A stretch of DNA of 35,352 nucleotides from Candidatus Altimarinota bacterium. Its GTDB lineage: Bacteria; Patescibacteriota; Gracilibacteria; UBA4473. Where the stretch lies: the NCBI GenBank assembly GCA_020631075.1, contig JAHDHX010000006.1, forward strand, positions 106,243 to 141,594. The letters run 5' to 3'. This document shows, piece after piece, positions 2 to 34,189 of the stretch; position 1 is the stretch's first letter; each line of letters begins with the position of its first letter. The position numbers were made by a program, and so were the translations under genes. The notes under the pieces were generated by a model. The model was given only the letters and a program-made list of their open reading frames with translations. It was not told the DNA's origin and made no database searches.

Positions 2-1018
2 CAGCGCTACAAAGTCGCCAAGATTCGCAACCCAATGGTGAAGGCCTTCTGGGAAAACGAAATGGCCCAGACAGGCGACCGCGAGAAGCAAGAAATGATC
101 CCCTACTTCACGTCCAAGTTCGGGCCATTTATCACCAACACCACCATGCGGAACGTGATCGGACAGACCAAGTCCGCCTTCAACGTCCGCGAGTGCATGG
201 ACAGCGGCAAAATCCTCATGATCAACCTCTCCAAAGGGAAAATCGGCGCGATTAACGCCCAACTCCTCGGGCTGATCGCCGTCGCCAAGATCAACATGGC
301 CGCCATGGGCCGCGTCGACATCCCCGAACCCGAACGCCGCGACTTCTACCTCTACGTCGACGAGTTCCAAAACTTCGCCACCGACACCTTCGCGTCCATC
401 TTGTCTGAGGCGCGGAAGTACCACCTCAACCTCATCATGGCCCACCAATACATCGCCCAGCTCTCCGAGTCGGCTGGTGGGGTGGCCGTCGGGCAAAAAG
501 ACTCCAAAATCCGCGACGCCGTCTTCGGGAATGTCGGGACAATGATCAGCTTCAAGGTCGGCGCCGACGACGCAGAGTACCTTGAGAAAGAATACTCCCC
601 CACCCTCTCCCAGCAGCACATCTTGGGCATCGCCAACTACAAAGCCTACCTCAAACTCAACATCAACAACGCCACCTCTCGCCCCTTCTCGATGGACACC
701 ATCTACGACCCCAGCAAAAAGAAGAAAAAAGTTCTCGAAGTTCTCCGCAAATACTCACGAATGAAGTACGGCCGCAAAAAAGAGTTCGTCGACGCCGAGA
801 TCGAAGCCCGCATGGGGGTCAACAACCTCAACGGCGAAGACCCAGAAAATCCCACGCCCCCCCGCTCCCCCGTCCTCCCCACCCCCATGGCTGGCCTCAC
901 CCCACCGGGGACCCCCGCCCCCGTTGCGCCCGCCCCACCGACCGTGTCTGGCCAACCCCCGACCATCCCCCCACCGACGAGCACCACCCCACCCACCGTC
1001 CCCCCGCCCACTCGCTAA
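2..1018 (+). CDS. TraG/VirD4-like T4SS coupling ATPase (3' part)
   Basis: The frame is open from base 2, so this is the C-terminal part of a gene that begins outside the window. It has the hallmarks of the C-terminal half of TraG/TraD/VirD4-type AAA+ ATPases: a hydrophobic strand ending in acidic residues (FYLYVDEFQNF, Walker B-like), then ILSEARKYHLNLIMAHQY, which matches the TraM-recognition/TraG-D C-terminal region, and later the FGNVGTMISFKVG strand. The Walker A motif must lie upstream. The last 55 or so residues are a proline/threonine tail of low complexity. In the family these inner-membrane ATPases feed substrate to a type IV secretion channel or pilus. The two pilin-like proteins at the other end of the window fit the same machinery. 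Whether it moves DNA or protein cannot be told. Confidence 0.82.
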   Translation, partial: QRYKVAKIRNPMVKAFWENEMAQTGDREKQEMIPYFTSKFGPFITNTTMRNVIGQTKSAFNVRECMDSGKILMINLSKGKIGAINAQLLGLIAVAKINMAAMGRVDIPEPERRDFYLYVDEFQNFATDTFASILSEARKYHLNLIMAHQYIAQLSESAGGVAVGQKDSKIRDAVFGNVGTMISFKVGADDAEYLEKEYSPTLSQQHILGIANYKAYLKLNINNATSRPFSMDTIYDPSKKKKKVLEVLRKYSRMKYGRKKEFVDAEIEARMGVNNLNGEDPENPTPPRSPVLPTPMAGLTPPGTPAPVAPAPPTVSGQPPTIPPPTSTTPPTVPPPTR

Positions 1019-4622: not shown

Positions 4623-4630
4623 AGTGCAGT

Positions 4631-4645: not shown

Positions 4646-4649
4646 TGTG

Positions 4650-4679
4650 ATTAATGTACAACTATCTTAACAAAAACAA
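4650..4679 (-). promoter_or_regulatory. Probable dnaA promoter
   Basis: On the minus strand TTGTTT (4674-4679) lies 17-18 nt upstream of CATTAA/ATTAAT (4650-4656), in the only AT-rich patch of the 218-nt gap. Transcription would start near 4643, leaving a leader of about 20 nt. Confidence 0.4.
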
Positions 4680-14929: not shown

Positions 14930-14969
14930 AAGAATCAGAGATAAATGAAGGAAAGAAGAGACAAAAGTA

Positions 14970-15326
14970 TTAACCAAGGATATTACTCCCGATTGCTCGT
15001 TCGACGAGCTTCGCTTGGCGCTCAGCGGCAAAACTTTTGCCGTCGGCACCACTTTGCAGTGAAGGTACAGGGATCAACGCTGGCAGCGCACGCTTCGCCA
15101 GCCGCGCGATCACATCATCCGAGAGGAGTTTATAGGTCGCCTCCTCCACAAACACGATCGCATACAGCGGCGTCGCCCCGTCATCAGTGGTCTTATTCGC
15201 CAGACTATACACCAGACCACTCGGGTCAGGGGTTTCGTCCGCACCATAGGTGTCCACCCCCAGCGCTTTATACACCATGATCGAGCTTTCACTCCCCACC
15301 ACAGCCAGTTTATATTCAGTACTCAT
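14970..15326 (-). CDS. atpF: V-type ATPase subunit F
   Basis: 118 residues, typical for the small central-stalk subunit F (NtpG type). It opens with a Rossmann-like strand [23 protein letters not shown] and later has [17 protein letters not shown], the standard F-subunit pattern. It binds the rotor with subunit D. The start lies 3 nt after the subunit C stop, and subunit A starts 40 nt downstream. Confidence 0.87.
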
Positions 15327-15329
15327 CTA

Positions 15330-16895: not shown

Positions 16896-16924
16896 GAGAG
16901 AAAGAAAGTGTTATATAAATGGGA

Positions 16925-17428
16925 CTAAGCCAAGTTGGCTGCAATCGCCACAAAGATCGCAATCAGCATTCCGAAGATCGCGTAGGTTTCAATCATCGCT
17001 GAGAGGATGATCGCCTTCCCAGAGATGCTTGACTCTTTCGCCACCGCGCCGATAGACGAAGCTACCACTTTCGCTTGCAGCAGCGCTGAAGACAAGCCAG
17101 AGATTCCCATGATCAAACCAGCCAGGAGGAATGCAATTCCCGCACCGACTGTCACGTTAAGGGCTTCACCACCACCCAGCATTCCCGCTTGGAGGAGGAT
17201 GATAATCGCCACCAGCAAGCCGTAGATACCTTGTGAACCAGGCAAGATCGTCAAGACCAAAATCGAACCAAACAGGTCAGGTTTTTCGGCCAACACGCCA
17301 GCACCTTTTTGCCCCGCCGTGCGGATACCCATACTCGAACCCAAGCCCCCCAGAAACACCGCCAAGAAAGCGCCAAGAATGGCCAGGACCGGACCCCATG
17401 CAAGGGCAGAAGTAGGAATAGTTTCCAT
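16925..17428 (-). CDS. atpK: V-type ATPase proteolipid subunit K (rotor ring)
   Basis: 167 residues with four TM helices, a duplicated hairpin as in NtpK-type proteolipids. The ion site is complete: L62, S65, Q66 and Y69 in LPGSQGIY, Q118 in LLQAK, and E147 in MIETYAIFG. In E. hirae NtpK the sodium ligands are L61, T64, Q65, Q110 and E139 with Y68 bonding; the Q-to-E spacing (29) is the same here. This predicts sodium rather than proton coupling. It lies between I and E. Only one proteolipid gene is present. Confidence 0.96.
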   Translation of the reverse strand: METIPTSALAWGPVLAILGAFLAVFLGGLGSSMGIRTAGQKGAGVLAEKPDLFGSILVLTILPGSQGIYGLLVAIIILLQAGMLGGGEALNVTVGAGIAFLLAGLIMGISGLSSALLQAKVVASSIGAVAKESSISGKAIILSAMIETYAIFGMLIAIFVAIAANLA

Positions 17429-17452
17429 GAAAAATAAGAGAGAAAAGAAAAA

Positions 17453-19519
17453 TTAGGAACGAAGAGAAACAAAACGGCTCACTCGCCGTAAGGGCTCAAA
17501 TGCTACCCCCCCCCCAGTGTAGAAATGACCAAAAAACTCAATAAACTGTAAACGCATAGAATGAATCCCAGCCCCGAGGGCCGACAGACCGAAATTGATC
17601 GAATGACCAAAGAGGATCACGATCGCCGCCGCAATGTGCGCCAGCCCTGGCACCCCCACCAGGTCAAAGATCACCCCCGCAGTCGTATTCATAGAAAATC
17701 CGATCACCCCCGTCGCCAGCCCCAGCGCCATCAAACGCGCATAGGACAGCATATCTGACACATATCCCATAATCCCAAAGAGCCCAATAAAGCCCTTAAA
17801 GACATACCCAATCAAATACGCAGGAAAGAGCACCACCTTCATGATTGGATTCTCTTGGTCCAAGAAAAACGGCGCCATATCTCGCCCCTGGGTCAAGATG
17901 AGCACCCCCGCCCCCACCGCGGCCAGCGTCCCCATCAGCCCTTGGTCTAGCCCCGTCAGCCCCGCTGTCCCAAACAGCGTCAGCATCAACACAAAGAAAA
18001 ACCACGCCCCACTGTCGAGCACCGCTCCCAGCAGGTCACCATTTCGTACCCGCTTGTAAGCATCCACTACCAGTGAGAAGAGCAACTGCATAATCCCCAG
18101 ACCAAACGAAGCCCCCAAGAAAATCAAAGTTCCATTACCCTGGATCGGGTTGACCAGTTGCCCCTTAAACATCGGGCCATCTGGCGTTTCATACGTCAAG
18201 TATGATGGAACCGCCGAAGCCTCAATCCCAAAGTACCCCCCCAGCAGCACCCCACCAATGATGGCCGCTACCCCACACATTAGCACCATCCGCAGCACCT
18301 TCTTAATGTCTTCATCGAAGTCCCCGCGGATCATAAAGTACAACGCCGTGAGCACCAGCAAGGTGCCATAACCAACGTCAGACAGACACACACCAAAGAA
18401 AAGTACGAAAAACGGCGCCATGAAGGGCGTCGGGTCAATATCATCCTTCGCTGGCATGCCGTACATCCCCGTCATAGTTTCGAACGAATCCACCCCCATC
18501 ATATTTTCGAGCAACACTGGGTGCACCTCCTCCTCGGTCACCGCTACTTCTTCCACGGCTACCCCACCACCAAAAGCGTCTTGCACCCACGATTTCAAAT
18601 CAGACAGCGAACGCTCAGGCGTCCACCCGGTGAAGGTAAATGATCGGTCAAAACTGTTGAGCTTCTGCCCCGCCGCCTCCCGCCCCAGCGACCAGTCCAG
18701 TGTATCAGCATACATCCGCGCTGGGCGCACTTGCTCCGCCAGCTTGGCCCGCGCGCGGCCTGACTCAGTCAACTCATGTTCATAATGAGAAATTTGATCT
18801 TCGATTTCCGTCAGCACACTTGTCACATACTTCCCCCCGTAGTGCTTATAAGCATCATTGAGCAAAAACGGCGCCGACGACGATTGGTCCGCCAGAGCAA
18901 AGATTTGCTCTTGCTGCGACGTGTGCGCGGTCACTCGCACGGTAATGTTATCACCGACTTTCCCCACCACCGCCGCGTCGAAGGCAGGCGAAGCCGCCGA
19001 AGCCGCCGCCTTAAACGACTCCAGACCTTTCTGCGTAAACACGAAGTATTTTGTCACCACAGATCGCACCCCGTCATCCGATAGATACGGCGCCTCCAGC
19101 GCTGACAACCCTTCAAAGTACTTATGAGTCACCTGCAACTGCTCGATTTCGTTGCGCCGTCGCACATCCCCTTCGCTCAGCTGCGATAACTCTTCAAAAT
19201 ACTGCGGAAAATCACGACCAAAGTCCTCCGCCACCGTAAAAATTTCTGACTCACGGCTGATCACCTTCCCCCCTTGCATCATCTTCGGCTTCGTCGCCTC
19301 AGGTTCCAGTGGCGCCAACTCACTTATGAAGTACTCTAATTGTTCTTTCAGGAGCACGTTCTCGCCCACGGGCGCTTCCGTCATCTGTTTCCCCGCTGAC
19401 TCAGCTGTTTCCTGCGCGTTAAAATGCACCAAGCCTTTCTGTTGCAAGCCCAGCACGAGGGAATCTCGGTGCTTCGCCAAACCCGCAAACCGCACTTTCG
19501 TCAGAGGAATTTTTGCCAT
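17453..19519 (-). CDS. atpI: V-type ATPase subunit I (a-type stator)
   Basis: 688 residues. The soluble N-terminal half (about 1-350) with coiled-coil segments and a V1-contact alpha/beta region is followed by a membrane half of about eight TM helices, starting near DIDPTPFMAPFFVLFFGVCLSD. The conserved C-terminal motif GAGIHSMRLQFIEFFGHFY, with the channel arginine near residue 656, and GGG...F.PL are present. It forms the ion half-channels against the proteolipid ring. It starts 2 nt after the stalk-subunit stop and ends 24 nt before the K start. Confidence 0.96.
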   Translation of the reverse strand: MAKIPLTKVRFAGLAKHRDSLVLGLQQKGLVHFNAQETAESAGKQMTEAPVGENVLLKEQLEYFISELAPLEPEATKPKMMQGGKVISRESEIFTVAEDFGRDFPQYFEELSQLSEGDVRRRNEIEQLQVTHKYFEGLSALEAPYLSDDGVRSVVTKYFVFTQKGLESFKAAASAASPAFDAAVVGKVGDNITVRVTAHTSQQEQIFALADQSSSAPFLLNDAYKHYGGKYVTSVLTEIEDQISHYEHELTESGRARAKLAEQVRPARMYADTLDWSLGREAAGQKLNSFDRSFTFTGWTPERSLSDLKSWVQDAFGGGVAVEEVAVTEEEVHPVLLENMMGVDSFETMTGMYGMPAKDDIDPTPFMAPFFVLFFGVCLSDVGYGTLLVLTALYFMIRGDFDEDIKKVLRMVLMCGVAAIIGGVLLGGYFGIEASAVPSYLTYETPDGPMFKGQLVNPIQGNGTLIFLGASFGLGIMQLLFSLVVDAYKRVRNGDLLGAVLDSGAWFFFVLMLTLFGTAGLTGLDQGLMGTLAAVGAGVLILTQGRDMAPFFLDQENPIMKVVLFPAYLIGYVFKGFIGLFGIMGYVSDMLSYARLMALGLATGVIGFSMNTTAGVIFDLVGVPGLAHIAAAIVILFGHSINFGLSALGAGIHSMRLQFIEFFGHFYTGGGVAFEPLRRVSRFVSLRS

Positions 19520-19521
19520 CT

Positions 19522-19851
19522 TTACGCTTTTTTACCTACCAGATCCAAGAACAGAGCCTGCCCCTCCGCCAATGCCCCCGCAATCTTCGCTTCCCCAGTT
19601 TCTGTCACCGTGCGCGAGTCCGCCTCAGCATTCTCTTTCTGCGCCGCAAAGGCTGACTTGTGCTGCGCTTTCGCTGCCTCCAGCTTCTCGGCGATGGCTT
19701 GCTTCTTTTTTTCCAGCTTTTCCGCATACATCTTCGCCAGCTCTTTTTGCTTGTCACCTTGCTGTTGCTTCAGCGACTCCACTTTTCCTTGCAGCTGCGC
19801 CGCCGCTTTGGCTTCCGTGTCTGTGATCTGCTGCAAATAGTTATCAGCCAT
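19522..19851 (-). CDS. V-type ATPase peripheral-stalk subunit (G/H-like)
   Basis: 109 residues, almost entirely one long Ala/Gln/Glu/Lys-rich helix (from EAKAAAQLQGKVESLKQQQ to about residue 75), then a short C-terminal helix ending DLVGKKA. This is the shape of the H/G stalk subunit that pairs with E. The family assignment rests on shape and on its place as the first gene of the operon. The frame extends further upstream, but MADNYLQQITDTEAK at 19851 is the sensible start; its leader is CGTTTCTCCCTCCT, pyrimidine-only near the ATG. Confidence 0.75.
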   Translation of the reverse strand: MADNYLQQITDTEAKAAAQLQGKVESLKQQQGDKQKELAKMYAEKLEKKKQAIAEKLEAAKAQHKSAFAAQKENAEADSRTVTETGEAKIAGALAEGQALFLDLVGKKA

Positions 19852-20188
19852 AGGAGGGAGAAACGTAAAGAAATTACAATGAAATCTTTCCAGAAAATTT
19901 TCGCGAGGATTGTTAGAGCGACCTCCGCCAGTGTCAATAAAATTCAGTTTGGTTTTTATCATCATTATCAAGCCCCAAAAAAACCTAAACAGCTACTCCG
20001 CAGACCTATGCCACCTTTCAGCAACCATGTACACATTTAAGTCTCAATATCTCCGACATCAGATTGCTGGACGTCACAAAAAACTTATCCTCTTTCTGAA
20101 AGCGCATTGGTGCCGCATCATCACCAAGTCACACCAAAAACCGCGCCAAATCTCTACCCTGCGCATAGATTCATCCCCCTCCCCCGCC
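19852..20188. other. Divergent intergenic region, V-ATPase / TPR gene
   Basis: No gene is credible here. On the minus strand a TGTAAT box about 21 nt before the V-ATPase operon ATG is a possible -10 without a clear -35. On the plus strand nothing convincing was found; the sequence just before the TPR start is C-rich. Confidence 0.4.
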
Positions 20189-21732: not shown

Positions 21733-24000
21733 CTACCGCCAATTATTCTCCCCCGTCGTGCTGCCTGCTGGGGCAGCTGGGGCGGCCACTTTGACCGTGT
21801 CGGTGAAGGTATCGATCACCCCCCGCTTATCGGTCACTTTCAGCTCCACGGCGTATGTCCCAGGCGTGGCATAGATATGCGTCGGACTATAACGGTCAGA
21901 CGTCCGCCCATCACCGAAGTCCCACTCATACCGACTGATAGTCCCTTCCGAAGCCCCCGCGTCAAACCGCACTTTCAGTGGCGCTTCACCATTCGCAGGC
22001 GTCGCGGCAAACTGCGCTCGCAGCGGCAGCTCCCGTACGGAGATATACTGCTCCGACTCCGCTTTTTCCCCCGTCGAGGTCAAGATCTGTAACTTAACAG
22101 GAAACACCCCCACCGAAGTAAACTCAAAGTCCACCTGCGCCCCCGCGTGCAGCGGCGGCTGCTCGTCAAAAGTCCAGATATAGTCAATGATCTCCCCCTC
22201 GTCCGTGGTCGACGCACTCCCGTCAAACCCTACCGCCAGTGGCACCACCCCACTCGGTGGGTCAGGGGTAAAGCGCGACGCCGTCCCCGCCCGCGACACG
22301 TCTATGGGCAGCTCCGCTTTGTACTCATTTTGGTCGGCGTCCACCATCGTCAGGGTCACCGTGCGCTGGCCCGCCGTGCGGTATGTAAACTCAGCCGTCT
22401 CCGTGTAGGCGTCCGCACTGCCGTCCCCGTCCAGGTCCCACTGCCAGTCAATCACATTCGTCACGTCTGACCTCGCCGCTGAGAAATTCACCGTCAACGG
22501 CACCGTCCCCTCCAGCGCCTTGGCCGAGTCCAGCTTTTGCGGCACGGTGTCTATCCGCACCTGGGCGTCACTGGGGTCCAGCAGCACTTTGACGATCTTG
22601 GTTTGCTCCGCCCGCTCGCCGTCTTCGTTCGTCACCCGCAGCTTGACTTCATACGTCCCCGTCCGCCGAAAGGTGCGGTTAAGGGTCTGCCCCAGCTGCG
22701 GCTGGTTTTCCCCTTCTATCCACCATTCATAGCGGATGATCCGCCCCAACTGTGAGAACGACTGCCCCCCGTCCAGCGTCATCGTGTGCGGCGGCACGCC
22801 CTCCCACGGCTCGGTCGAGCTCATCACCGCCGTCAGCCGACCATCTGGTTTTTCCACCGCCACCATTTGCGACAGCGTGGCTGTTTCTCCATTGGCGCCC
22901 GTCACGCGCAGCGTCACTTCATAGTCACCGATCGCCGTCAGTTCACGCTCCACCGACACCAGGTCCTGTCCCGTCATTTCATACTGCCCGTCCCCGTCAA
23001 AATCCCACTCATAGCGGATGATCTGTCCGTCAGGGTCAAACGCCTCCGCCGCGTCAAACGTCACCAGCAACGGGCTCGGGCCACGGTCTGGGAAAGCTTG
23101 AAACTGCGCACTGACCCGCTCATTGTCAATGAAAACATCTTTGGTCTCTGAGCGCGGCGGCTGCTCATTCCCCGCCGCATCCGTGTACGAAATCGTCACC
23201 GTCACTGGGTACCGCCCTTCGGCCTTGCCCCGATCGGTAAACTGGTGACTGACCGTCGGGCCGAAGTAATCAGGCGTCCCATCATTTTCTATATCCCACT
23301 TGATCTGCTGCACATACTGCGTCAATCCCTCCGCCGCCAGTGCCTCCCCCACGTCAAACTGCACCAGCACTGGCGCCGTCAGCCCCCGCGTCACCACGGG
23401 GTCGGTACGGATAAATGAAGCATTCGGCGTCGCACTCGCCCCCTGCAAGTTGGTGGTGATCAGGAGGTACAACGCCATCCACAGCACCACACTCAGCACC
23501 ATCAGCAGGCTCGTCGTCACCGCCCGCACCAGTTTCGGCCGCCGCAGCTTTGACTTCGCCGACGTCATAAACCAGCCAAAGAAACGAATCAACGCTACAA
23601 TAAAGAGCACAAACGCCGTCAGGCCAAAGATCACATTGGTGATCGTCAGCAAAAACGACCGCACCTGCACGGGTGCCATACCCAAAGACTGAAACGTCGC
23701 ACTGTCCGCCCCCCCCGTCAGCAGCGAGGCAATCATCGCCCCATAAAAAAACAAAATCAGCAAGGCAAAAAAGCCAAACACCCCCAGCAAGATCGCCCGC
23801 GCCCCACCCCCACTGCGCTGTTTTTTGGTGGTTTTCTTCTTTTTCTTAGCGGTGGCTTTCACTGCTTTTTTGGTGGGCTTCTTGGCACTTTTTTTAGGGG
23901 CCTCCTTGGTCGCTTTAGCTACCTTTTCCCCTGCCTGGGCTGACGCAGGCACTTCTCGTGGGGGGTTGTCTGACAGCTCTGTGGGCAGTTTCGGGCTCAT
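21733..24000 (-). CDS. Three-TM protein with six PKD domains
   Basis: 755 residues. Residues 1-65 are Lys/Ala-rich, strongly basic and probably cytoplasmic. Three TM helices follow at about 68-94, 115-142 and 158-183. The rest is extracytoplasmic: six PKD-type Ig-like domains, each recognisable by a W-D-(F/L)-D-G or similar strand and a closing GxYxVxLxV strand, for example RYEWDFDGDGQYE, WQWDLDGDGSAD and RYEWDFGDGRTS...GTYAVELKVTD. The DxDGD loops may bind calcium. PKD domains act in adhesion and as spacers in surface proteins. Its promoter is in the stop codon of the giant PKD gene upstream. Confidence 0.93.
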   Translation of the reverse strand: MSPKLPTELSDNPPREVPASAQAGEKVAKATKEAPKKSAKKPTKKAVKATAKKKKKTTKKQRSGGGARAILLGVFGFFALLILFFYGAMIASLLTGGADSATFQSLGMAPVQVRSFLLTITNVIFGLTAFVLFIVALIRFFGWFMTSAKSKLRRPKLVRAVTTSLLMVLSVVLWMALYLLITTNLQGASATPNASFIRTDPVVTRGLTAPVLVQFDVGEALAAEGLTQYVQQIKWDIENDGTPDYFGPTVSHQFTDRGKAEGRYPVTVTISYTDAAGNEQPPRSETKDVFIDNERVSAQFQAFPDRGPSPLLVTFDAAEAFDPDGQIIRYEWDFDGDGQYEMTGQDLVSVERELTAIGDYEVTLRVTGANGETATLSQMVAVEKPDGRLTAVMSSTEPWEGVPPHTMTLDGGQSFSQLGRIIRYEWWIEGENQPQLGQTLNRTFRRTGTYEVKLRVTNEDGERAEQTKIVKVLLDPSDAQVRIDTVPQKLDSAKALEGTVPLTVNFSAARSDVTNVIDWQWDLDGDGSADAYTETAEFTYRTAGQRTVTLTMVDADQNEYKAELPIDVSRAGTASRFTPDPPSGVVPLAVGFDGSASTTDEGEIIDYIWTFDEQPPLHAGAQVDFEFTSVGVFPVKLQILTSTGEKAESEQYISVRELPLRAQFAATPANGEAPLKVRFDAGASEGTISRYEWDFGDGRTSDRYSPTHIYATPGTYAVELKVTDKRGVIDTFTDTVKVAAPAAPAGSTTGENNWR

Positions 24001-24029: not shown

Positions 24030-27000
24030 CTATTGTACCGCACGCGGCCGCACTTCGACAATCACGATATCACGCGCCGTCCGCACCCCGTCCGTCACCG
24101 AGTACTCCACCCGGTAATACCCAGGAATCGTGTACCGATGCACAATGTTTTGCCCCACTTTCTTGATCCCATTGCCCATGTCCCACTCAAACCCGAGCGC
24201 CGCGTCCGTCTCGGGCGCCGTCCCATACAGGAATATATTCGAGCCCGTGTGCCCCCAGATCGTCACATAAGGTATAAATTTCATATCAGGCGACAGTCCC
24301 GCCAACCGCAAGCAAGTGTCCGTGTCACCCACCGCTTGGTTTATGCGCACATTCAGCTGCTTGATTTCATCCGCTATCCGCACCTTCTCGTCAGTGGTTT
24401 CAGCTGCTTTCAGCTGGTCCACCAGCTGGTTCTTTTCCCAGACCAGTCGGTTTTGATACGTCTCACAAAACCCCTCCAGCACCTCTGCCTGCTTCTCGCG
24501 TAGTTCCGCCCGCTGGGCTACCTGCTGGGTCACTTGGGTCAGCACGGCTTCTATCGCCGCCTGCTCCGCAGGGTCATCTGACTGGTCTATAGCCATCTGT
24601 AAGGTCGCCTGCGTCCGTTGCAACAGGGCAATGTCCGTCTGCTGTCCACTTTGCACCAGCGCCGTTTCCAGCTCATCTTTGATCGTCAGCGTGTTGTCAC
24701 GCGCTTCGGTCAGCTGCGCCACCGCCACCGTGTCCCCCGCGGCTTGGGCTTGGGCCAGGGCCTGCTCCAGTCGGCTCAGGGTTTGGTTCACATTCGCCAG
24801 CGAAGTGTCTATGTCCGTGCTTATCCCCCCATTGGTCGCGGGCACACTGGTGTAGGTTATCAGCGTCGACTGCACCGTCTCCGCCGCCTCCAGCTGCTCC
24901 GTCAGCGTGGTCACGGCCGCCGCGTCACCGTCGGCTTCCGCTTGGGCTATTTCGGTTTCTATCTCCTCGATCGTGCTCTCCACCTGCACCACCGCCTGGG
25001 CGACTTCCCCCGCCGTGATCATCCCGCTCTCGGCGCCTGTCTGCACGTCGGTCAGGGCCTCAGTCAGCGTTTGCGTTGTGGCCAGCTGCTCGGTCAGCTC
25101 TGTCACCGTTGCGGTGTCCCCACTCGCCTCCGCCGCGGCTATCTGCGCCTGCAAGGCAGCCACCGTGTCCCCCAGTGTGGCGATCTCTTGCTCCAGCGCA
25201 GTGGTGTCGGGCCAGCTGTCCGCATCACTCTGCGGGAAGTAATTCTCAGGCAACCCCGCCAAGATATCATCATAGTCCGTCGCCACCTGCTCCGTGTCGA
25301 TGGTCTCACTCGGCGGCACGGTGTCACCTGTTTCCAGTTGCTCTATCAGGTCGAGGTCATCTTGCGCCTCCGCCAGCAAGTCCGCCACCACAGGGTTTTC
25401 CGTATCCCCCTGCAAGTCAGACAAATCCTCCCCCATGTCCCCCAGCGCGTCGTTGAGGTCATCACCATTGGTGGCCACCTGCACCCCGTCAGGGTCAAGG
25501 GGCGTCGTGCCCTCGGGCAAGAGGTTCGGGGCGATCGGCTCAGGTGTGCCCGTCCCCTCCTCCACGGTGATCGTCACCGTGTCACTGGCCGTCAGCTCAC
25601 CGTCACTCACCGTCACCGTCGCGGTGTACTCCCCCGCCGCCGCATAGAAGTGAATCACATCATCCACACTATACGTCACCCCATCTCCCATATCCCACAC
25701 ATACGTCAGCTCATCATTCGGGTCGAGGTCACTGCCGTGCGCATACAGCACAAACCGCGTGTCGGTCGTCCCCTGCTCCGACGGCGCCACCCCCACTATG
25801 CTCACCGACGGTGGGTTATTTTCCCCCTCAGCCGCTGGGGTGTACCCATTAGCCAGGCCCAGTCCTTCGGCCACCTGCACCGTCACACTGTCTGTGCTCT
25901 CGGCGGTGCCGTCACTGGCCGTCACCGTCACGGTGTACTCCCCCGCCTCGGGGTAAGCGTGCGACACCATCGGCGCGGTGTATGTCACCCCATCGCCCAT
26001 GTCCCACACATACGTCAGGTTTTCTCCGTCCAGGTCCACCCCCTGCGCACCAAAGATAAACACCGTGTCCGTCGTCCCGTTCTCCCCGGGGCTCACATTG
26101 CGGATCTGCACCGTCGGCCCCGCATTCTCACCGTTGGTGCCCGACCCTTCCCCCACGGTTATTTCTTGCGTTGCGGTCGTCTCATTCACCCCATCGCTGA
26201 CCGTCAGCGTCACCGTGTACTCCCCCCCCTCAGCATAGTAGTGCGTCACCGCTTCCCCCTCGGCCGTGTTACCATCACCGAAGTCCCAACTATACGTCAC
26301 CGCTTGACCGTCAGGGTCAAACCCATGTCCATAAAATTGAAATAAATTGTCCGTCGTCCCTGTCTCGGGGCTTACGCCAGTAATGTTCGCCTCAGGGGAC
26401 GTTTCCCCACTCGGGTTCCCGGGGGTGACGGTCACCGTCACCTCGTCGGTCGCCGTGGCCAGTCCGTCATCGACCGTCACTTTGACGGTATATTCCCCCT
26501 CCGTCGCATAAATATGATTCACCGTCGCTCGGCTATAGGTCGTCCCATCCCCCATGTCCCATTCATACGTCAGCGTACGCCCATCCATATTGATCGCCCG
26601 ACTATAAAACCCAAACAACGTCTGCGTCGTCCCCTGCGTGTCGGGCAGCACGGTGGTGACCTGCACCGTCGGGTCATTGGGCGCAGGGGTGGTGTCCACC
26701 ACAGTGACGGTTTCCGTCGCTTCCGCCGTGGCCTCACCGTCACTCACCGTCACCGTCACCGTGTACTCCCCCGCTTCCGTAAAGAGATGTCGTATGTGCC
26801 GCCCCGCATACACCCCGCCATCCCCCGTGTCCCACGCATACGTCAGGCTATCACCGTCCATGTCCAACCCCGTGGCCGACAGGGCCGTCATCTGGTCGAC
26901 CCCCACCACTAGCCCAGGGTTCACACTGGTTATCGCCACCTGCGGGAGCGTATTTTCCGCCCCCTCGGGGGTCGTCACCGTCAGGGTGCGCGTGTTAGTC

Positions 27001-30000
27001 ACGTCCGTCACTCCGTCACTGACCGTCAGCGTCACCGTGTACGTCCCCGCCGTCAGATAAAAGTGCCGCACCACCGCCACCCCGCTGTAAGTCGTGCCGT
27101 CACCCATATCCCATTCATACGTCAGCCGATCCCCGTCAGGGTCTGTCACTCGGCTATACAGCCACCAGCTATCATACACCGTCCCCGTCTCACCGGGTTG
27201 CACCGCGATGATCTGCCCCACAGGCGGGTTATTGACCGCTTCATCCGTCGTCACCTCCAGCGTCACCGTGTCTGGCGCCGACCATTCATAGCCGTCATAC
27301 GTCTCCACCGTCACCGTGTACGTCCCCGCCGTTTCATAGATATGCTTCACATGGTTCACCCCCTCAAAGGTTGTCCCATCGCCCATGTCCCAGCGGAAGT
27401 CCAACGCGTCACCGTCTATGTCCAGCCCATAGGCCGACACCCCAAAGACAGTTCGCGTCGTCCCCGTCAGGCTCGGGCTCACACTGGTTATGGTCACCTC
27501 AGGGGCATTGTTCGCCTCACTCAGGCTCTGCACCACTATTTCCACTGACTCCGACGTTGTCTCGTCTATGCCGTCACTGGCCGTCACCGTCACCGTGTAC
27601 GTCCCAGGTTCGGTGTAAAAATGACTCACAAACGCCGTCTCATACGTCGTGCCGTCGCCCATGTTCCACAGGAATGTCAGTCGATCATTGTCGGGGTCCG
27701 CATACTGCGCATACACCTGCACTCGCTCATTTTCCAGCACCGTCTGGCTGGGCGTCACCGCGGTTATGTCTATCACGGGCGGGTTATTCATCCCCGACCC
27801 ATCCCCACCGATCACCACCGTCACCTCATCACTGTCTTCCCCCCCCAGCGTGTCGGTCACCGTCACCTTCACGGTGTATGTCCCCTCCGCCTCAAACACA
27901 TACTGCAGCGTCTGGTCATTGATAGGCCGCTCTATCGTTTCATTCACGTCCCCCCCAGTCACCTCCCAGACGAGCGTCTGCAGGTTGTTGTCTTCGTCCG
28001 TCGCCCGCGCGTTGAAGGTAAACACCTCATCGATCCTCCCTCCTTCATATTGCGTCACATCACTGAGGTACGTCCCAGGCGAAACATTTATAATCTGCAC
28101 CTGCGGGTCAGCGTTGGCCGTCACAGTCTGGGGCAGCACCGTCACGGTGGTGCACTGGGGCTCGGTTTCGACGGTGCCGTCATTGGCCCGCACACACATT
28201 TCATACGTCCCTGGCTCGTCATAGCTGTGCGTCAGTGAAGGCCCTATGCCCACATATTCATACACCCCGTCACCATCCACGTCCCAGTCATAGGTCAGCG
28301 CGTCACCATCCACATCGGTCCCCACCGCATTGAAAGTTATCGGCTCCCCCTCATACCACGTCATTTCCGCCGCTTGCCCGGGCAGGGCCGTGCCCGTCAG
28401 CGGGCTCAGGGTCACCGTCGGGGCGTTGTTGGGCGGGGTCAGGTCCCCCACGCCTATCTCCACCGTGGCAGACACCGTGTGCCCCTCAGGGTCGAGCGCC
28501 CACCCGTCATACACCTCAAACCGCACTGCGTAGGTCGCCTCTTCGTTGAATACATACGAAAACACCTTACTCCCCTCACTCACCAGCACGTCGTCTATGT
28601 ACCATTTATACGTCAGCACATCGTCAGGGTTCGTGTCAAAAGCATTCCCATACACCGTGACCAAGTCCCCCAGGCCCACACTGGTGTCGGGCGTCACCGA
28701 AGTAATACTTACCACAGGCGGCACATTCCCCTCCCCGCCATTGGCCGTGCCCACGGGCGGCACGCCGGGGGGCTGGCTGACATACACCGTCACCGTGTTT
28801 GACTGCACCCAACGGATTTCATCATCCAGCGTCGCACACGCCTCCGCAGGGTACTCATAGTCATACGCAAACGGCTCACAGCCCGAGTTCCCCGCCCCTT
28901 CATTGGCAAACAGCGTGTAGTCTTGATAAATCCCATCCAAGTACCGCGCATACCCCTGCGCAAAACATTCATACGTCTCCACGTTCGGCGGCCCCGCCGC
29001 GTCATCGGTCGGCAGCTCCCCCGTCACATTGGCCGTCAGAGCCCCCCACAGCTCGCGCCAGTCCCCCCAGGCAAAGTCCCCCAGACCCGCGTCTGTCACC
29101 ACCTCGGTGTACGGCTGTCCGTCACTCACACACAGCACCGCTGTGTATTCCCCCCCCGCGTCATAGCGGTGCGCAGGCGCAGGCCCAGTCCCCGTCCGCC
29201 CATCACCATAAAACCAGCGGTACTGCAATACGTCCCGCTCAGGGTCGACCACCGTCGACTGGAACCGAAAATCTTGGCTCGCATTCCCCGAGTTATCATT
29301 GAGGAATATCTCCGCCGTCGGTGGCAGATTATTGAAAACATTATCCACCTCCACTGGCCCCAGCGCCCCCGCGGGGTCATCTGGGGTATAAACGAGTATC
29401 TCAGGGTAAGTCCCCTGCGCCGACCCCCCATCCGCATCGAAGACCGTCACCCGCACGGTGTATCGGTGGTACCCATTGTCCTGCGACAGGTCAAAAAACG
29501 CCCGCACCGTGTCCCCCGTTGACCCCCCCGCTCCGAAAGGATCAGTAATCAGCTGCGCGTGCTGCACTACATTTCCCTCCAGCAGCTCTATCCGCACCGA
29601 GTCAATTATTCCAGGATTATCATCCTCTACCCCCTGCGAGGGGTTCGGCGGCGCGTTTTCATCCCGCACTAGGTGGCGCGTGTCACGGTCACGCACCCGC
29701 ACATCCACGCGATACAGCGAGTTCCGCGGCACTTCCACCGCATTCGCATCATCAGGGTTAAGCGTCAGCTGGTTTTCCCCCGCCACTGCTACGATTTCAG
29801 GGTTCTTGTTGACGACCCTCACCGCGAAGCTCTTCACGTCCCGCAGGTTGGCATTCGCTTGGTCCGCCAGTGTCAGTCGCACGGGGTAGCTCCCCAAAGG
29901 CACCGAACCGATCACATACGCTCGTTCATCATTATCATTGGTGTACACCCCACGGTTAAAGAACTCCGTCACCGAACGGTCATCCGTCCCGATCAGCTCA

Positions 30001-32687
30001 CCATTCACCGTCCAGCTCAGGCTATACCCCGCTCTGTCCCCCGTGTTACTTTCGTCCAGCGCATAGCCGTTGGGCGTGCGTGACCCGCCCGAGTCAAAAG
30101 TCAACGCTTGGTCACGGGTCACCTCCACGGGCCCCAGCGCGAGGGGCAGCGCTTCCAGCGACTCACTAAATGGCGCAGGGTCATCCCCATCCGTGTAAGG
30201 CTCAGGCTCCCCCAAGTCCGCCAACCCGTCAGGGTACCCATACAGTTGCGGGATCGCCGTCGGCATCCCCTGTCGGTGCACATACACCGTCCGCTTCACC
30301 GTGTTTGAGATTTCTGTCGCCTCTGTGTCGGGTGGCGTCACCTGCGTCCGCGCTCGGAGGTACAAGTGATACACCCCTGGCTCACGAAACACCACCTTGG
30401 TGTTGCGCGGCCCGTTGTACTGCGTGTCCGCACAGTCCACGTCCGCCGTTTGCGTGTTGCCCTCGGGGGTAATGTTAGGGTTCGCCGCCGACAGCCCCCC
30501 CACCGTCTGGTAGTTCACCATCGCTGGCCCGTCGGTCGTGTCATACCCCGCCGTGCTTTCGTCTGTCCACCAGCAATAGTCCAGCTCCGCGGGGTCTTGC
30601 CCCGTCAGCACGTCCGCCCGCAGGTCATACACCCGCTCGGTTTCATACTGCTCTAGCACCGCAAAGTCCACCTTCAGCGTCTGCCCACTCTCCACCACCA
30701 CCCCGATGTCACCGTTTGGGCCCTGTTCGAGGTCAGCATCTGGCCCCGTCCCCCAGCAGTCATGGTGCGAGCGCAGCGTCAGGGTTTTATACGGCTGCTC
30801 CACCTCCAGTTTCACCGCCCACGCCCCGGGCTCAGGGAAGGTAAAATTGGTGATCGGACTGGCAGAATTCGCCTTCAGCCACCCCGTCGGCTCGGCGCAG
30901 GCCGCCGCCAGTTCCTTTTGGTTCAGCCCCGACGGCACAGGCTTTATCCGCCAGATATACGTCAGGTTTTTGTCATTATTGTACGTATTCCGACTCCCAC
31001 TCCCGTCTAGTTGATACTCCGCCGCGGTCAGGCCGTTGGGGTTGGGCTCCACACTGACGATGTCCGCATACGGACGGTTCGGCAACACACGGATGGGTAT
31101 CCGTCGTTGATCCGTTATCCCCGTCGCCGTTTCCAGTTGCACCGTGATGGTATAGTTCCCAGGCGCGTCAAAGTACACATTGTCCACCACTGTTCGGTCT
31201 ATGCCTATCAACGGCTTGGTTGTGTTGGCCGGCGGGGTCGGATTATTCGGGTCTGGCACACCGCCAAAAGCCCCCCCCCCCGCGTAGCACGTCCCCGTCC
31301 CCCATTCACTCGCTGTCCCAGCATCATTGGGGTCATCGGTTTCGGGCAGCGTCTGCCCCCCATCATACACACACCCCCATGTGTAGTTTATAATGTCCCC
31401 AATCTGCGAGGTCGACCCCGAAGCGTCAAAGCTCAACCCTTCATAGCTATAAAATTCCCCCGCCACTGGGTTTTCATCCCACCCACCCAGTGGCTCGGTC
31501 ACGATCACCGTCCCGTCTGACGTACCATTCACATTCACCACCGGCGTAATCCCCCCAATGAAGAGGACCGTCTTCGCCACCGTCTGGTGATAGTTTTGCC
31601 CCGTGTCCCCTTTGTCTATGTCCGAAGAGTTATTCGGCTGCCACGGGTCTACTTGATAGTAAGAATTCCCCGTCGCAGACACCGCACTCACTTCATACAC
31701 CCCCTCTTCCCCAAAGCGATGAAACGCCTCATACCCATATCCATTCGGGTTATCCGCGCCAAACTGTGCCGGCTGGAAATTTTTCGGACACGTCGGATCA
31801 CATTCAAAGTTCACCCCATTTCCGAAATTCCACGCATAGACAGAATCTTCCAGTTGGTCCGCCACCGTGTATGTCACCTGTCCATTGTCACGGTTGAGGA
31901 TTTCTATATCTCGCAGATCCATCGAATCCACTGGGTTCCCCAGCACCACTCCGTCCCCTTCCCCAAACATATTAAAGTACAACCCCTGCGCCGCCACTTC
32001 CAGAGGCACATAGTACCCTTTCCCAATGTCCTGCACCTGCAAGTCTACTATATCTTGCGGCATCTTCGCCTCCGTCGAGGCATACACACGCTGAAAATTA
32101 ACCTGACGGTTCGACACCGCCTCCTCAAATCCCATAATCTGACGTATCACCGTGTTGACGATCGCATACGAAGCCAAGATCACAATAATCCCAATGATCG
32201 CATAAATAATCATCTTTTTGGATTTCTCCACGTTGCCGTCTTCCCCCCCACTAAAGACATACAAGTACCCCGCATAAATGATGACCGCCACCGCAAACAG
32301 ACCCAAAAAGGTCAACGACCAGTTTATTAACTGAATGATAAAAGCGCGAATATCAATACTATTCGCCAGTCCCCTATCAGACACCAGGTTACCATATTCA
32401 TCATAATACGCATATCCCCACTGGTTACGTGTGTCACTCACCACAAATTTCCCGTTCGGCACTTTGTGCCCCCCCCCTATATCAAGGCTTATCTCTGCAA
32501 TATCCCCGATATTTCCATAAAAATTCCCCACCATGTTGGGGCTCCCGTCCGAGCTAAAGTTCACACTCGCTCCCCCCCCCAGACCACTCTGGTCCCAGAC
32601 GTTTCCATTCACACTCGTGGCCAACGCACTCAGCGGCGCCACCAGTGGCAGCACAATGCAGCAGAGAGTCAGCAAGATTCTTTTCAT
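24030..32687 (-). CDS. Giant T4SS-pilin-like / PKD-repeat surface protein
   Basis: 2885 residues. A signal peptide (1-23, cleavage near ALA-TS) precedes a two-TM segment (about 117-145 and 158-181) with the loop SGGEDGNVEKSKKM and the end ASYAIVNTVIRQ. This matches the neighbouring small protein and the two-TM pilin-like family associated with type IV secretion in CPR bacteria. From about 260 come seven irregular PKD/Ig-like domains, then about 11 regular ones (about 1325-2375) of roughly 90 residues with WDMGDGTTY-type and GEYTVTVTVSDG-type strands. Residues about 2395-2795 are helical, with three related 63-residue units. A final PKD domain (FEWDMGNG...) closes the protein. It should extend far from the membrane. 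It follows the small pilin-like gene by 19 nt. Confidence 0.93.
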   Translation of the reverse strand: MKRILLTLCCIVLPLVAPLSALATSVNGNVWDQSGLGGGASVNFSSDGSPNMVGNFYGNIGDIAEISLDIGGGHKVPNGKFVVSDTRNQWGYAYYDEYGNLVSDRGLANSIDIRAFIIQLINWSLTFLGLFAVAVIIYAGYLYVFSGGEDGNVEKSKKMIIYAIIGIIVILASYAIVNTVIRQIMGFEEAVSNRQVNFQRVYASTEAKMPQDIVDLQVQDIGKGYYVPLEVAAQGLYFNMFGEGDGVVLGNPVDSMDLRDIEILNRDNGQVTYTVADQLEDSVYAWNFGNGVNFECDPTCPKNFQPAQFGADNPNGYGYEAFHRFGEEGVYEVSAVSATGNSYYQVDPWQPNNSSDIDKGDTGQNYHQTVAKTVLFIGGITPVVNVNGTSDGTVIVTEPLGGWDENPVAGEFYSYEGLSFDASGSTSQIGDIINYTWGCVYDGGQTLPETDDPNDAGTASEWGTGTCYAGGGAFGGVPDPNNPTPPANTTKPLIGIDRTVVDNVYFDAPGNYTITVQLETATGITDQRRIPIRVLPNRPYADIVSVEPNPNGLTAAEYQLDGSGSRNTYNNDKNLTYIWRIKPVPSGLNQKELAAACAEPTGWLKANSASPITNFTFPEPGAWAVKLEVEQPYKTLTLRSHHDCWGTGPDADLEQGPNGDIGVVVESGQTLKVDFAVLEQYETERVYDLRADVLTGQDPAELDYCWWTDESTAGYDTTDGPAMVNYQTVGGLSAANPNITPEGNTQTADVDCADTQYNGPRNTKVVFREPGVYHLYLRARTQVTPPDTEATEISNTVKRTVYVHRQGMPTAIPQLYGYPDGLADLGEPEPYTDGDDPAPFSESLEALPLALGPVEVTRDQALTFDSGGSRTPNGYALDESNTGDRAGYSLSWTVNGELIGTDDRSVTEFFNRGVYTNDNDERAYVIGSVPLGSYPVRLTLADQANANLRDVKSFAVRVVNKNPEIVAVAGENQLTLNPDDANAVEVPRNSLYRVDVRVRDRDTRHLVRDENAPPNPSQGVEDDNPGIIDSVRIELLEGNVVQHAQLITDPFGAGGSTGDTVRAFFDLSQDNGYHRYTVRVTVFDADGGSAQGTYPEILVYTPDDPAGALGPVEVDNVFNNLPPTAEIFLNDNSGNASQDFRFQSTVVDPERDVLQYRWFYGDGRTGTGPAPAHRYDAGGEYTAVLCVSDGQPYTEVVTDAGLGDFAWGDWRELWGALTANVTGELPTDDAAGPPNVETYECFAQGYARYLDGIYQDYTLFANEGAGNSGCEPFAYDYEYPAEACATLDDEIRWVQSNTVTVYVSQPPGVPPVGTANGGEGNVPPVVSITSVTPDTSVGLGDLVTVYGNAFDTNPDDVLTYKWYIDDVLVSEGSKVFSYVFNEEATYAVRFEVYDGWALDPEGHTVSATVEIGVGDLTPPNNAPTVTLSPLTGTALPGQAAEMTWYEGEPITFNAVGTDVDGDALTYDWDVDGDGVYEYVGIGPSLTHSYDEPGTYEMCVRANDGTVETEPQCTTVTVLPQTVTANADPQVQIINVSPGTYLSDVTQYEGGRIDEVFTFNARATDEDNNLQTLVWEVTGGDVNETIERPINDQTLQYVFEAEGTYTVKVTVTDTLGGEDSDEVTVVIGGDGSGMNNPPVIDITAVTPSQTVLENERVQVYAQYADPDNDRLTFLWNMGDGTTYETAFVSHFYTEPGTYTVTVTASDGIDETTSESVEIVVQSLSEANNAPEVTITSVSPSLTGTTRTVFGVSAYGLDIDGDALDFRWDMGDGTTFEGVNHVKHIYETAGTYTVTVETYDGYEWSAPDTVTLEVTTDEAVNNPPVGQIIAVQPGETGTVYDSWWLYSRVTDPDGDRLTYEWDMGDGTTYSGVAVVRHFYLTAGTYTVTLTVSDGVTDVTNTRTLTVTTPEGAENTLPQVAITSVNPGLVVGVDQMTALSATGLDMDGDSLTYAWDTGDGGVYAGRHIRHLFTEAGEYTVTVTVSDGEATAEATETVTVVDTTPAPNDPTVQVTTVLPDTQGTTQTLFGFYSRAINMDGRTLTYEWDMGDGTTYSRATVNHIYATEGEYTVKVTVDDGLATATDEVTVTVTPGNPSGETSPEANITGVSPETGTTDNLFQFYGHGFDPDGQAVTYSWDFGDGNTAEGEAVTHYYAEGGEYTVTLTVSDGVNETTATQEITVGEGSGTNGENAGPTVQIRNVSPGENGTTDTVFIFGAQGVDLDGENLTYVWDMGDGVTYTAPMVSHAYPEAGEYTVTVTASDGTAESTDSVTVQVAEGLGLANGYTPAAEGENNPPSVSIVGVAPSEQGTTDTRFVLYAHGSDLDPNDELTYVWDMGDGVTYSVDDVIHFYAAAGEYTATVTVSDGELTASDTVTITVEEGTGTPEPIAPNLLPEGTTPLDPDGVQVATNGDDLNDALGDMGEDLSDLQGDTENPVVADLLAEAQDDLDLIEQLETGDTVPPSETIDTEQVATDYDDILAGLPENYFPQSDADSWPDTTALEQEIATLGDTVAALQAQIAAAEASGDTATVTELTEQLATTQTLTEALTDVQTGAESGMITAGEVAQAVVQVESTIEEIETEIAQAEADGDAAAVTTLTEQLEAAETVQSTLITYTSVPATNGGISTDIDTSLANVNQTLSRLEQALAQAQAAGDTVAVAQLTEARDNTLTIKDELETALVQSGQQTDIALLQRTQATLQMAIDQSDDPAEQAAIEAVLTQVTQQVAQRAELREKQAEVLEGFCETYQNRLVWEKNQLVDQLKAAETTDEKVRIADEIKQLNVRINQAVGDTDTCLRLAGLSPDMKFIPYVTIWGHTGSNIFLYGTAPETDAALGFEWDMGNGIKKVGQNIVHRYTIPGYYRVEYSVTDGVRTARDIVIVEVRPRAVQ
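24032..24061 (-). promoter_or_regulatory. Promoter of the six-PKD gene, inside the giant gene's end
   Basis: TTGTCG (24056-24061), 18-nt spacer, TACAAT (24032-24037) on the minus strand. The last bases of the giant gene (Val-Gln-stop, gta-caa-tag) form the -10 box. This leaves a leader of about 25 nt. Confidence 0.6.
24700..25136 (-). repeat. Three 63-residue helical repeats in the giant protein
   Basis: Related segments AAAEASGDTATVTELTEQL, AQAEADGDAAAVTTLTEQL and AQAQAAGDTVAVAQLTEA are encoded near 25082-25136, 24892-24948 and 24700-24756, at intervals of 190 and 192 nt. Each joins two heptad-like helices, suggesting a helical-hairpin array. Confidence 0.75.
25560..28710 (-). repeat. Regular PKD-domain array (about 11 units)
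   Basis: About 11 consecutive PKD domains with a period of about 270-290 nt. Recurrent strands are LTYxWDMGDGxTY, VxHxYxxxGEYTVTVTVSDG and a linker NNPPxVxIxxVxP. The C-rich + strand shows the same short motifs again and again (for example GTCACCGTCACCGTGTACTC). Confidence 0.88.
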
Positions 32688-32706
32688 AGGGTGTGTTGGT
32701 GTGTGT

Positions 32707-33402
32707 TTAGGGGTTTGGCGTGTTCATCAGACTATAGTCAAATCCACTCGATCCTTGGCTCGTGTCGATGTAATTATTGACCGTCACTCGGTCCGCATTC
32801 ACCGCCCGCATAATGGTATTGACGATCGCATACGCCGCAAACACCAGAATGATCCCCAATATCACATACAGCACAATGTTCTTGGCCTTCTCCATCTGCG
32901 AATCCTCACCAAAGGCCGATATATACAGGAATCCCGCATACACCACCGCCACCACGGCGATCACCGCCATGATCCCACTAAAAAACTTCACCCACCCAAT
33001 CACCAGCGTCGGCAAGTCACGCTCTTTCGACACCCCAGGGTCGAGCATCGTCGCCGCTATATCCGCCCCAGGTTTAAGCCCCGGACCAGTAAATATTGGC
33101 TTCGTCACGGGGTCATAAAAAACAGGCACCGCAGGAATGTCAGGATTTTCATAATACGCCCCCTCATCTATTTTTACGTCTTTTTTTATGATCTGCGTAT
33201 TCGGCAGCTGGATGTCTATCTCCACATTAAAATCCAAATTTTCAGGATCAACCAAATCACTAAACTCTCGCACCTCATCGGGCAGCAGCCCCATGGGGTC
33301 ACTCGGGTCAAACCCCTGCGCCCCCACCACACCCAGTCCCCCCCAGCCACACAGCCAGCTCAGCATTCCCCCCAGCCACAGCCCTTTTAGGAAAGTACGC
33401 AT
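32707..33402 (-). CDS. Small T4SS-pilin-like protein
   Basis: 231 residues with an N-terminal signal peptide (1-29, ending VVGAQG) and a charged middle region of about 100 residues. Two TM helices follow (about 141-162 and 175-198), linked by the short loop SAFGEDSQMEKAKN and ending FAAYAIVNTIMRA. The two-TM block aligns closely with residues 117-183 of the giant protein downstream, including GED...EK.K and AYAIVNT.(I/M)R. The arrangement is that of VirB2/TrbC-like pilins and of the T4SS_pilin family reported from CPR genomes; assignment is by eye. The probable promoter has an extended -10 (TGGTATGAT, minus strand, near 33428-33436). Confidence 0.88.
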   Translation of the reverse strand: MRTFLKGLWLGGMLSWLCGWGGLGVVGAQGFDPSDPMGLLPDEVREFSDLVDPENLDFNVEIDIQLPNTQIIKKDVKIDEGAYYENPDIPAVPVFYDPVTKPIFTGPGLKPGADIAATMLDPGVSKERDLPTLVIGWVKFFSGIMAVIAVVAVVYAGFLYISAFGEDSQMEKAKNIVLYVILGIILVFAAYAIVNTIMRAVNADRVTVNNYIDTSQGSSGFDYSLMNTPNP

Positions 33403-33520: not shown

Positions 33521-34189
33521 ATGCTCACCACCAACCCCAAGCTCTGGTACCTCAAAAACTACGACCTTTTCGAAGGTATCAGCGAAGCCGACATCACCAA
33601 AGTCGCCGCCGACACACAAATGATCGAACCACCCGCCCACACTGTCCTCTACGAAGCCAGTGACGAGGTCGAACGCGTCTACGTCATCAAAAAAGGCGAA
33701 GTCAGATTGTTTCACCAGCACCCCGAATCAGGCAAAAAAGTCATCTTCGACACCCTCGAGCCAGGCGACGTCTTCGGCGGCATCAGTCCCGAAAGTTCGC
33801 AGTACGGCCACTTCGCCCAGACCATGCCGGGCACCTGCGTCTGTGCCTTTTCTCAGGCCGAGTTCCTCGCTCTCATTTCTACCTACCCGCAGGTCATGTT
33901 TCGGTTTATGAAACACATGACCTCACGCGTCGCGGAGTACCAGCAAGAGTTCGGGAAGTACCAATCCAAAGCTGATGATCTGGTCTTGCACGAGCTCCAA
34001 CGCCTCAATGACAAACGCCAGCGCGGCTGGCTCGGCACCATTATCAACCGCCCCCTGCGGGCCACCCACGAAGAAATCGCCACCCTCACGGGGCTCAACC
34101 GCGTCACCGTCACCCGCGCTATGAAGTCCCTGCGCGAGCAATCTCTCATCGAATATGACTCTCACACTGGGGTAATCACACTGCAATAG
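33521..34189 (+). CDS. CRP/FNR-family transcription regulator
   Basis: 222 residues. An N-terminal cyclic-nucleotide-binding-type beta-roll (about 10-115: LFEGISEADI...VYVIKKGEVRLFHQHPESGKKVIFDTLEPGDVFGG), the long dimer helix (about 118-150) and a C-terminal winged HTH (about 170-215) with recognition region THEEIATLTGLNRVTVTRAMKSL. The segment after GDVFGG (ISPESSQYGHFAQT) lacks the Arg-Ser/Thr phosphate-binding pair of cAMP-binding CRP, and the four FNR cysteines are absent, so the signal is unknown. It diverges from the pilin-like gene at 33402 and could control both neighbours. The leader before the ATG (GCGCCCACTCTC) has no Shine-Dalgarno. Confidence 0.93.
   Translation: MLTTNPKLWYLKNYDLFEGISEADITKVAADTQMIEPPAHTVLYEASDEVERVYVIKKGEVRLFHQHPESGKKVIFDTLEPGDVFGGISPESSQYGHFAQTMPGTCVCAFSQAEFLALISTYPQVMFRFMKHMTSRVAEYQQEFGKYQSKADDLVLHELQRLNDKRQRGWLGTIINRPLRATHEEIATLTGLNRVTVTRAMKSLREQSLIEYDSHTGVITLQ

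Follow-up and report, generated by a model that had tools for sequence, protein, structure and literature searches.

A T4SS_pilin-family block shared by a small pilin-like protein and a giant PKD-domain protein in a three-gene cassette of Gracilibacteria

We analyzed a stretch of 35,352 nucleotides (nt), here called the window, from the end of contig 35 of a Candidatus Altimarinota genome (class Gracilibacteria; assembly GCA_020631075.1, 1.46 Mb, 96% complete; contig JAHDHX010000006.1, positions 106,243 to 141,594). On its minus strand, three genes follow one another in the order of transcription: a stand-alone pilin-like gene (PIL, 231 residues), after 19 nt a giant gene (FUS, 2885 residues), and after a further 29 nt a gene of 755 residues (MID). 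PIL and FUS both carry a block of the T4SS_pilin family, named for the type IV secretion system (T4SS). In FUS this block is fused to a long array of PKD domains, while MID has a membrane region and six PKD domains. The most likely role of the cassette would be that of an extracellular attachment fiber on a pilin-family base. All three genes are also present on a contig labelled Candidatus Gracilibacteria bacterium (Tobar13.5m-G57), which matches the window closely. A preliminary description of this DNA, made from its letters, had given the extents of PIL and FUS and the 19-nt spacing between them correctly, and had overlooked MID as a member of the cassette. The features of the cassette are as follows (window positions).

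32707..33402, minus strand: PIL, stand-alone pilin-like protein of 231 residues with a signal-peptide-like N-terminus and a hairpin of two transmembrane segments (TMs) (PF18895, PF04956)
32785..33048, minus strand: T4SS_pilin block of PIL, residues 119-206 (profiles and alignment)
24030..32687, minus strand: FUS, 2885 residues, with signal peptide, T4SS_pilin block, divergent immunoglobulin-like (Ig)/PKD region, PKD array, helical stretch and terminal PKD
32136..32378, minus strand: T4SS_pilin block of FUS, residues 104-184 (PF18895; conservation)
25557..29336, minus strand: PKD array of FUS, 12 units detected in residues 1118-2377, including eight contiguous ones from 1633 onwards (iterated PKD profile, PKD_4)
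24288..25520, minus strand: helical or coiled-coil-like stretch of FUS, about residues 2390-2800 (composition; weak match to the coiled-coil family PF16326)
24048..24254, minus strand: terminal PKD of FUS, residues 2812-2880 (distal end conserved within the family)
21733..24000, minus strand: MID, third cassette gene, 755 residues, with a basic N-terminus (predicted cytoplasmic), three TMs and six PKDs
23446..23802, minus strand: TM region of MID, residues 67-185; its TM2-TM3 hairpin is a probable divergent pilin block (profile comparison)
21784..23406, minus strand: six PKD domains of MID (iterated PKD profile)

The proposal that the small and the giant protein have a two-TM block in common was borne out by profile searches with curated cut-offs, which could have put the two blocks into unrelated families and placed both in T4SS_pilin (PF18895, cut-off 26.6 bits). 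PIL scored 40.4 bits over residues 130-197, and FUS scored 27.3 bits as a whole protein (residues 121-179) and 35.0 bits with the block alone. Against TrbC/VirB2 (PF04956, cut-off 27.9 bits), PIL lay narrowly above the threshold with 28.7 bits and the FUS block below it with 20.5 bits; against NF045849 (Mbov_0395-type pilin-like conjugal transfer protein, cut-off 40 bits), PIL with 23.6 and FUS with 22.2 bits both stayed below. The two blocks could be aligned over 81 residues with a BLOSUM62 score of 180, and the GED...EK.K loop and the AYAIVNT end occur in both, while 2000 hydropathy-preserving shuffles of the blocks gave a mean score of 40.4 and a maximum of 81 (z=15.5). Profile-profile comparison of 26 stand-alone with 33 fused blocks yielded a probability of 100%, PF18895 was matched by all 33 fused blocks of relatives, and the TM glycines that are invariant in PIL (G51 and G77 of alignment A1) align with those invariant in FUS (G49 and G75 of alignment A2). 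The PIL and FUS blocks are members of one family, T4SS_pilin. Almost every genome of the phylum sample has this family (57 of 59), and the source genome contains 15 PF18895 matches. Searches by sequence for relatives of solved structure gave no significant match for either the stand-alone or the fused block profile.

For FUS, the usual topology rules, applied to a cleaved signal peptide, a cytoplasmic loop and two TMs, predict that the PKD arm is extracellular. The PKD assignment is based on PKD_4 (PKD domain PF18911/PF00801), whose cut-off was exceeded by FUS (512 bits) and MID (204 bits). Thirteen PKD stretches were detected in FUS with Pfam PKD_4 and 15 with an iterated local profile, so that the earlier count of about 18 had the right order of magnitude and was slightly high, because the first third of the protein consists of divergent Ig-like domains. 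A helical stalk, also noted before, was recovered by composition as the stretch in front of the terminal PKD. This last domain shows 42.1% mean identity among 10 relatives, compared with 25.5% (all pairs) or 34.7% (best match) for the internal PKDs. Across the class, the giant varies in length from about 500 to 3600 residues, with 1 to 15 detectable PKDs in the fused proteins. One pilin-headed giant of 3627 residues (L086:2858-13741) has a single detectable PKD and still stands between a pilin gene and a six-PKD gene. In several families, the one-piece giant ends with a tail that reads roughly PDWLK[GN] (L066, L068, L069); the same tail ends an extra PKD gene at L072:10851-13082, L079:10638-12893 and L073:10255-12909, and is absent from the giant of the window. 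This conserved tail may serve in sorting or docking.

MID has an N-terminal TM instead of a signal peptide, followed by a two-TM hairpin with a basic loop and the PKD domains. All 27 members have exactly six of these domains, as do three further proteins found in the same position. Comparison of the MID hairpin family with stand-alone pilins by hhalign gave a probability of 95%, compared with 4-6% for a reversed control and less than 2% for column-shuffled pilins. PF18895 was matched by 10 of the 27 members. A scan of 286 genomes of the phylum with the MID profile also gave matches outside the class; those examined were mostly small pilins with signal peptides, and all ten that were tested exceeded the PF18895 cut-off. 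Pairwise alignment of the MID hairpin of the window is unconvincing alone (z=2.7 with PIL, 4.7 with FUS), the likeness being visible in the family profiles only. The hairpin probably descended from a T4SS_pilin block; since MID of the window itself has no PF18895 match, we call it probably derived and do not class it as a member of the family. A plasmid search with MID retrieved other PKD proteins only, none of which covered 80% of the query.

The arrangement was followed through 44 loci, in 35 of which a pilin block is fused to PKDs; this rate is biased, because the loci were chosen partly by large pilin-containing open reading frames (ORFs), a choice that affects the link to MID less. Wherever the contig reaches far enough, PIL is the same-strand neighbor upstream of the fused gene. 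If the loci selected through MID itself are set aside, 32 fused loci remain, and in 25 of these MID comes next downstream or is separated from the fused gene by one extra PKD gene. Among the other seven, five reach the contig end (L048, L049, L052, L076, L080), one (L073) has another PKD gene instead, with MID on a different contig, and one (L086) contains a six-PKD gene that is missed by the MID profile. Many of the gaps between the cassette genes lie between -4 and about 100 nt and are thus mostly operon-like. At a threshold of 1e-10, MID was detected in 111 of 241 class genomes and, in the phylum sample, in none outside the class. A survey of relatives had been suggested beforehand, and in it the pilin-PKD fusion proved to be conserved beside a stand-alone pilin across many of them; these patterns indicate a fusion that is real, old and conserved.

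Further pilin-block proteins were seen in and around such loci. Paired proteins with three pilin blocks each are encoded upstream of the fused gene at L074:3437-5531, L075, L077, L078, L132, L133 and L134, and at L074, L133 and L134 the cassette adjoins nusG-like and ribosomal protein genes. Pilin-headed giants are not confined to the class of the window: other classes of the phylum have gene pairs in which an N-terminal T4SS_pilin block is fused to Big_5, TIG or Big_7 giants. Such giants are encoded at L130:901-14178 (3302+ residues), which also resembles beta-propellers, and at L131:1711-13703 (about 3440 residues), which is followed by a gene with TSP3 repeats.

Within the giant, conservation is highest in the pilin block, with a mean identity of 49.5% in the class and 60.1% in the family, compared with 19-33% for its flanks (class-wide 28.5% before and about 19% after the block). 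MID served as an internal control, with 29.8% identity in its TM region and 37-40% in its PKDs. As the TM region of MID should also anchor an arm and is conserved less, hydrophobic segments alone cannot explain the conservation of the FUS block. This conservation and the matching glycines favor a block that is more than an anchor and that packs specifically, most simply with PIL. On the tree of blocks, the fused and stand-alone states require 7 changes, compared with 26.7 for shuffled labels, and a single fused clade was not rejected (p-AU 0.50). We regard the FUS and PIL blocks as separate old lineages on a tree that is poorly resolved because the block is short.

Two separate genes encode the arm in six genomes of the family to which the window belongs (L057, L060, L061, L062, L082, L049). 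The first of these encodes the pilin block and up to three detectable PKDs. The distal gene encodes a signal peptide of its own and lacks a pilin block, its start matches an internal site of the one-piece forms, e.g. residues 562-574 of L063, and in the members aligned (L057, L060, L082) it ends with the same terminal PKD. The occurrence of one-piece and two-piece forms of the same protein suggests that the two halves of the arm act together.

We propose tentatively, at somewhat less than an even chance, that the three genes form one surface structure, in which a pilin-family subunit displays an extracellular attachment fiber and is possibly co-assembled with PIL. PIL would be a T4SS (VirB2-like) pilin-family subunit that may polymerize into a pilus, and FUS a second subunit of the same family, the outward C-terminus of which would be extended by the PKD chain, the helical spacer and the terminal PKD to form an arm reaching from the cell. 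MID would be the third membrane protein, with a hairpin probably derived from the same pilin block and a fixed six-PKD stalk, and would act as the constant structural partner. The pilin hairpin of FUS would pack with PIL and so hold the protein in a short pilus-like filament or in a membrane base, and FUS would present its arm and terminal domain for contact with another cell. A more specific form of this proposal, which we consider rather unlikely, is a dedicated cell-contact organelle of one class of the candidate phyla radiation (CPR): a pilus or pilus base of T4SS pilins, some subunits of which would bear fused Ig-fold arms of lineage-specific length, together with the constant six-PKD partner.

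Several points weigh against such a surface structure. The engine genes of a T4SS are present in the genome (VirB4 on contig 5, VirB3/PrgI on contig 49, a VirD4-like gene on contig 35) and scattered, none of them being encoded with the cassette, as VirB4 and PrgI are on other contigs and the VirD4-like gene is about 32 kb from PIL; VirB6 (PF04610) had no match in the genome. Both observations agree with a survey, the available part of which reports that TrsD and VirB3 of Gracilibacteria are mostly not near VirB4 and that in Microgenomatia and Gracilibacteria VirB6 is rare or missing (PMC12102498). VirB4 was found about 4 kb from the PIL-FUS pair in one relative only (G033). The structure models are weak (mean pLDDT, the predicted local distance difference test, 44-54): a single-sequence model of PIL (mean 54) and a four-sequence model of the FUS N-terminus (mean 44) each yielded the hairpin only, with moderate confidence for the predicted helical hairpins (pLDDT about 70-84), and a fold search with the models gave no significant match, the Agrobacterium T-pilus being one of two fold matches to the PIL model (E=8.6, not significant). 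In family f7, three of the loci examined contain PIL and MID but no FUS, and MID is missing from the listed genomes of family f5. In other classes, the same block is also found at the head of unrelated Ig-type giants (Big_5, TIG, Big_7). Finally, steric reasons make it unlikely that FUS is the main component of a pilus, which would leave it the place of a minor subunit or of one at the tip or base. As judged from its gene content, the genome could drive a T4SS pilus, and the cassette could be linked to it and use its ATPases.

The preliminary description had pointed to a VirD4-like ATPase at the other end of the window. This gene is present, but as evidence for a link between the cassette and a T4SS it was rejected: it starts at contig position 104456, upstream of the window, and lies near dnaA (3186-4661), at a distance of over 20 kb from the closest gene of the cassette and of about 32 kb from PIL, in a separate operon. 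On the same contig, it is immediately preceded by the gene of a 3543-residue giant with DUF11 repeats (L010:5096-15727).

35..1018, plus strand: VirD4-like coupling ATPase, C-terminal part (TrwB_AAD_bind, T4SS-DNA_transf, TraG-D_C), outside the cassette

An alternative is that the pilin block of FUS, and that of MID, is only a two-TM anchor, acquired through recombination with a hairpin family that is locally abundant. FUS would then be a membrane-anchored adhesin or fiber that is never part of a pilus, and its place beside PIL would reflect common regulation only. PF18895 blocks are indeed numerous in the source genome, with the 15 matches given above, the block stands in front of the unrelated Big_5, TIG and Big_7 giants, no link to the T4SS engine genes is seen, and MID shows that a pilin-like hairpin can drift towards an anchor. 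A mere anchor accounts less well for a conservation of the FUS block that greatly exceeds that of its flanks and of the MID TM region, for the retention of PIL's invariant glycines, and for PIL always adjoining. We consider this reading a serious possibility that nonetheless falls short of being probable.

The cassette might instead build an outer layer of the envelope, as a support or spacer of a surface layer (S-layer), with MID as a fixed strut, FUS as a variable brush and cell contact as a secondary effect. Surface-layer and envelope proteins often contain PKD domains, and exactly six PKDs in every MID examined would suit a strut of set length. However, the variation of FUS in length and sequence, with a terminal domain conserved within the family, fits a contact fiber better, and MID is missing from about half of the sampled class genomes and is therefore not a general part of the envelope, so that we hold an envelope scaffold to be improbable. 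TM segments are compositionally similar, and the window has a G+C content of 57.7% and many spurious ORFs; a chance likeness of two hydrophobic hairpins, with a giant ORF that is open only through high G+C, had thus to be considered as well. It is refuted by the score against hydropathy-preserving shuffles (z=15.5), the curated Pfam matches and the conserved gene order in many genomes, leaving it a negligible probability.

Next to the cassette, on the opposite strand, lies a gene for a regulator:

33521..34189, plus strand: CRP/FNR-family regulator, divergent from and adjoining the cassette (cNMP_binding and HTH_Crp_2, Pfam); its regulatory link to the cassette is putative

The remainder of the window up to the contig end (34341-35352) holds a lipoprotein-like gene with repeated thioredoxin-like CGTC modules, which runs off the contig. 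An operon for a V-type ATPase (subunits A, I, K and others) was recognized by eye from the sequence at 13169-19971. Promoter and terminator scans of the window gave nothing specific, and no RNA families or tRNAs were found in it.

Surface structures with some of these properties have been described. VirB2-like pilins of Patescibacteria are small and are found in arrays near virB4, according to the accessible parts of two studies (PMC12102498, PMC10633639), and the latter, in the same part, reports T4SS-cluster pilins to be essential for epibiotic growth of the cultured Saccharibacterium Se. The cassette resembles such arrays in its tandem pilin genes, with PIL as a member and the FUS block as a member by PF18895; it differs from them, as far as the accessible parts describe them, by the fusion of a pilin to a giant PKD arm, by the constant six-PKD partner and by its location away from virB4. 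RSP and RSP2 are large Ig-domain proteins that decorate the R27 conjugative pilus and aid cell contact, as stated in the available part of PMC8730810. They bind the pilus without being joined to the pilin, whereas here an Ig-like array is covalently fused to a pilin block. PrgB of Gram-positive T4SSs is an LPxTG-anchored protein with a polymer adhesin domain (PMC12857230), and the available part of the CPR survey mentions that no PrgB-type adhesins were detected in CPR T4SS (PMC12102498). FUS would likewise serve to contact a partner cell, but it combines a pilin block with PKD arms, and its C-terminus lacks an LPxTG motif.

Giant PKD/Ig membrane surface proteins of epibiotic CPR bacteria are reported, in the portions of the papers at hand, for Vampirococcus (PMC8080830) and for Paceibacteria living on methanogens (PMC10936435), and the latter portion lists PKD, Ig-like and T4SS pilin proteins among the highly expressed genes of unknown function. 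Like FUS, these giants are very large membrane proteins with adhesion-type domains; a pilin-PKD fusion or a cassette is not described for them in those portions. The NCBIfam entry NF058578 (CPR_pilus_PamR, pilus system RbmA-like protein) has a C-terminal part that resembles the PKD repeats of FUS and MID. With 51.6 bits for FUS and 35.1 bits for MID, both score far below its cut-off of 300, and a separate search of the genome gave 28.4 bits at best. The publication behind this entry was not found in the literature search, and given PamR, a publication describing something close to the cassette may already exist. Pilin arrays, Ig-decorated pili and giant PKD surface proteins are known already. 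For what appears to be new here, the covalent joining of a pilin and a PKD fiber together with a six-PKD partner, no description was found in the literature searched, which was available in part and covered subscription journals thinly.

The class to which the window belongs comprises very small, probably host-dependent bacteria, and T4SS are widespread in CPR bacteria according to the accessible part of the survey (PMC12102498). The fusion suggests that pilin blocks of the T4SS_pilin family can be display platforms and not bare filament subunits. With a T4SS-family pilin fused to fast-changing adhesion-type arms, and with a constant partner, the cassette provides concrete candidates for how CPR bacteria may recognize and hold their hosts.

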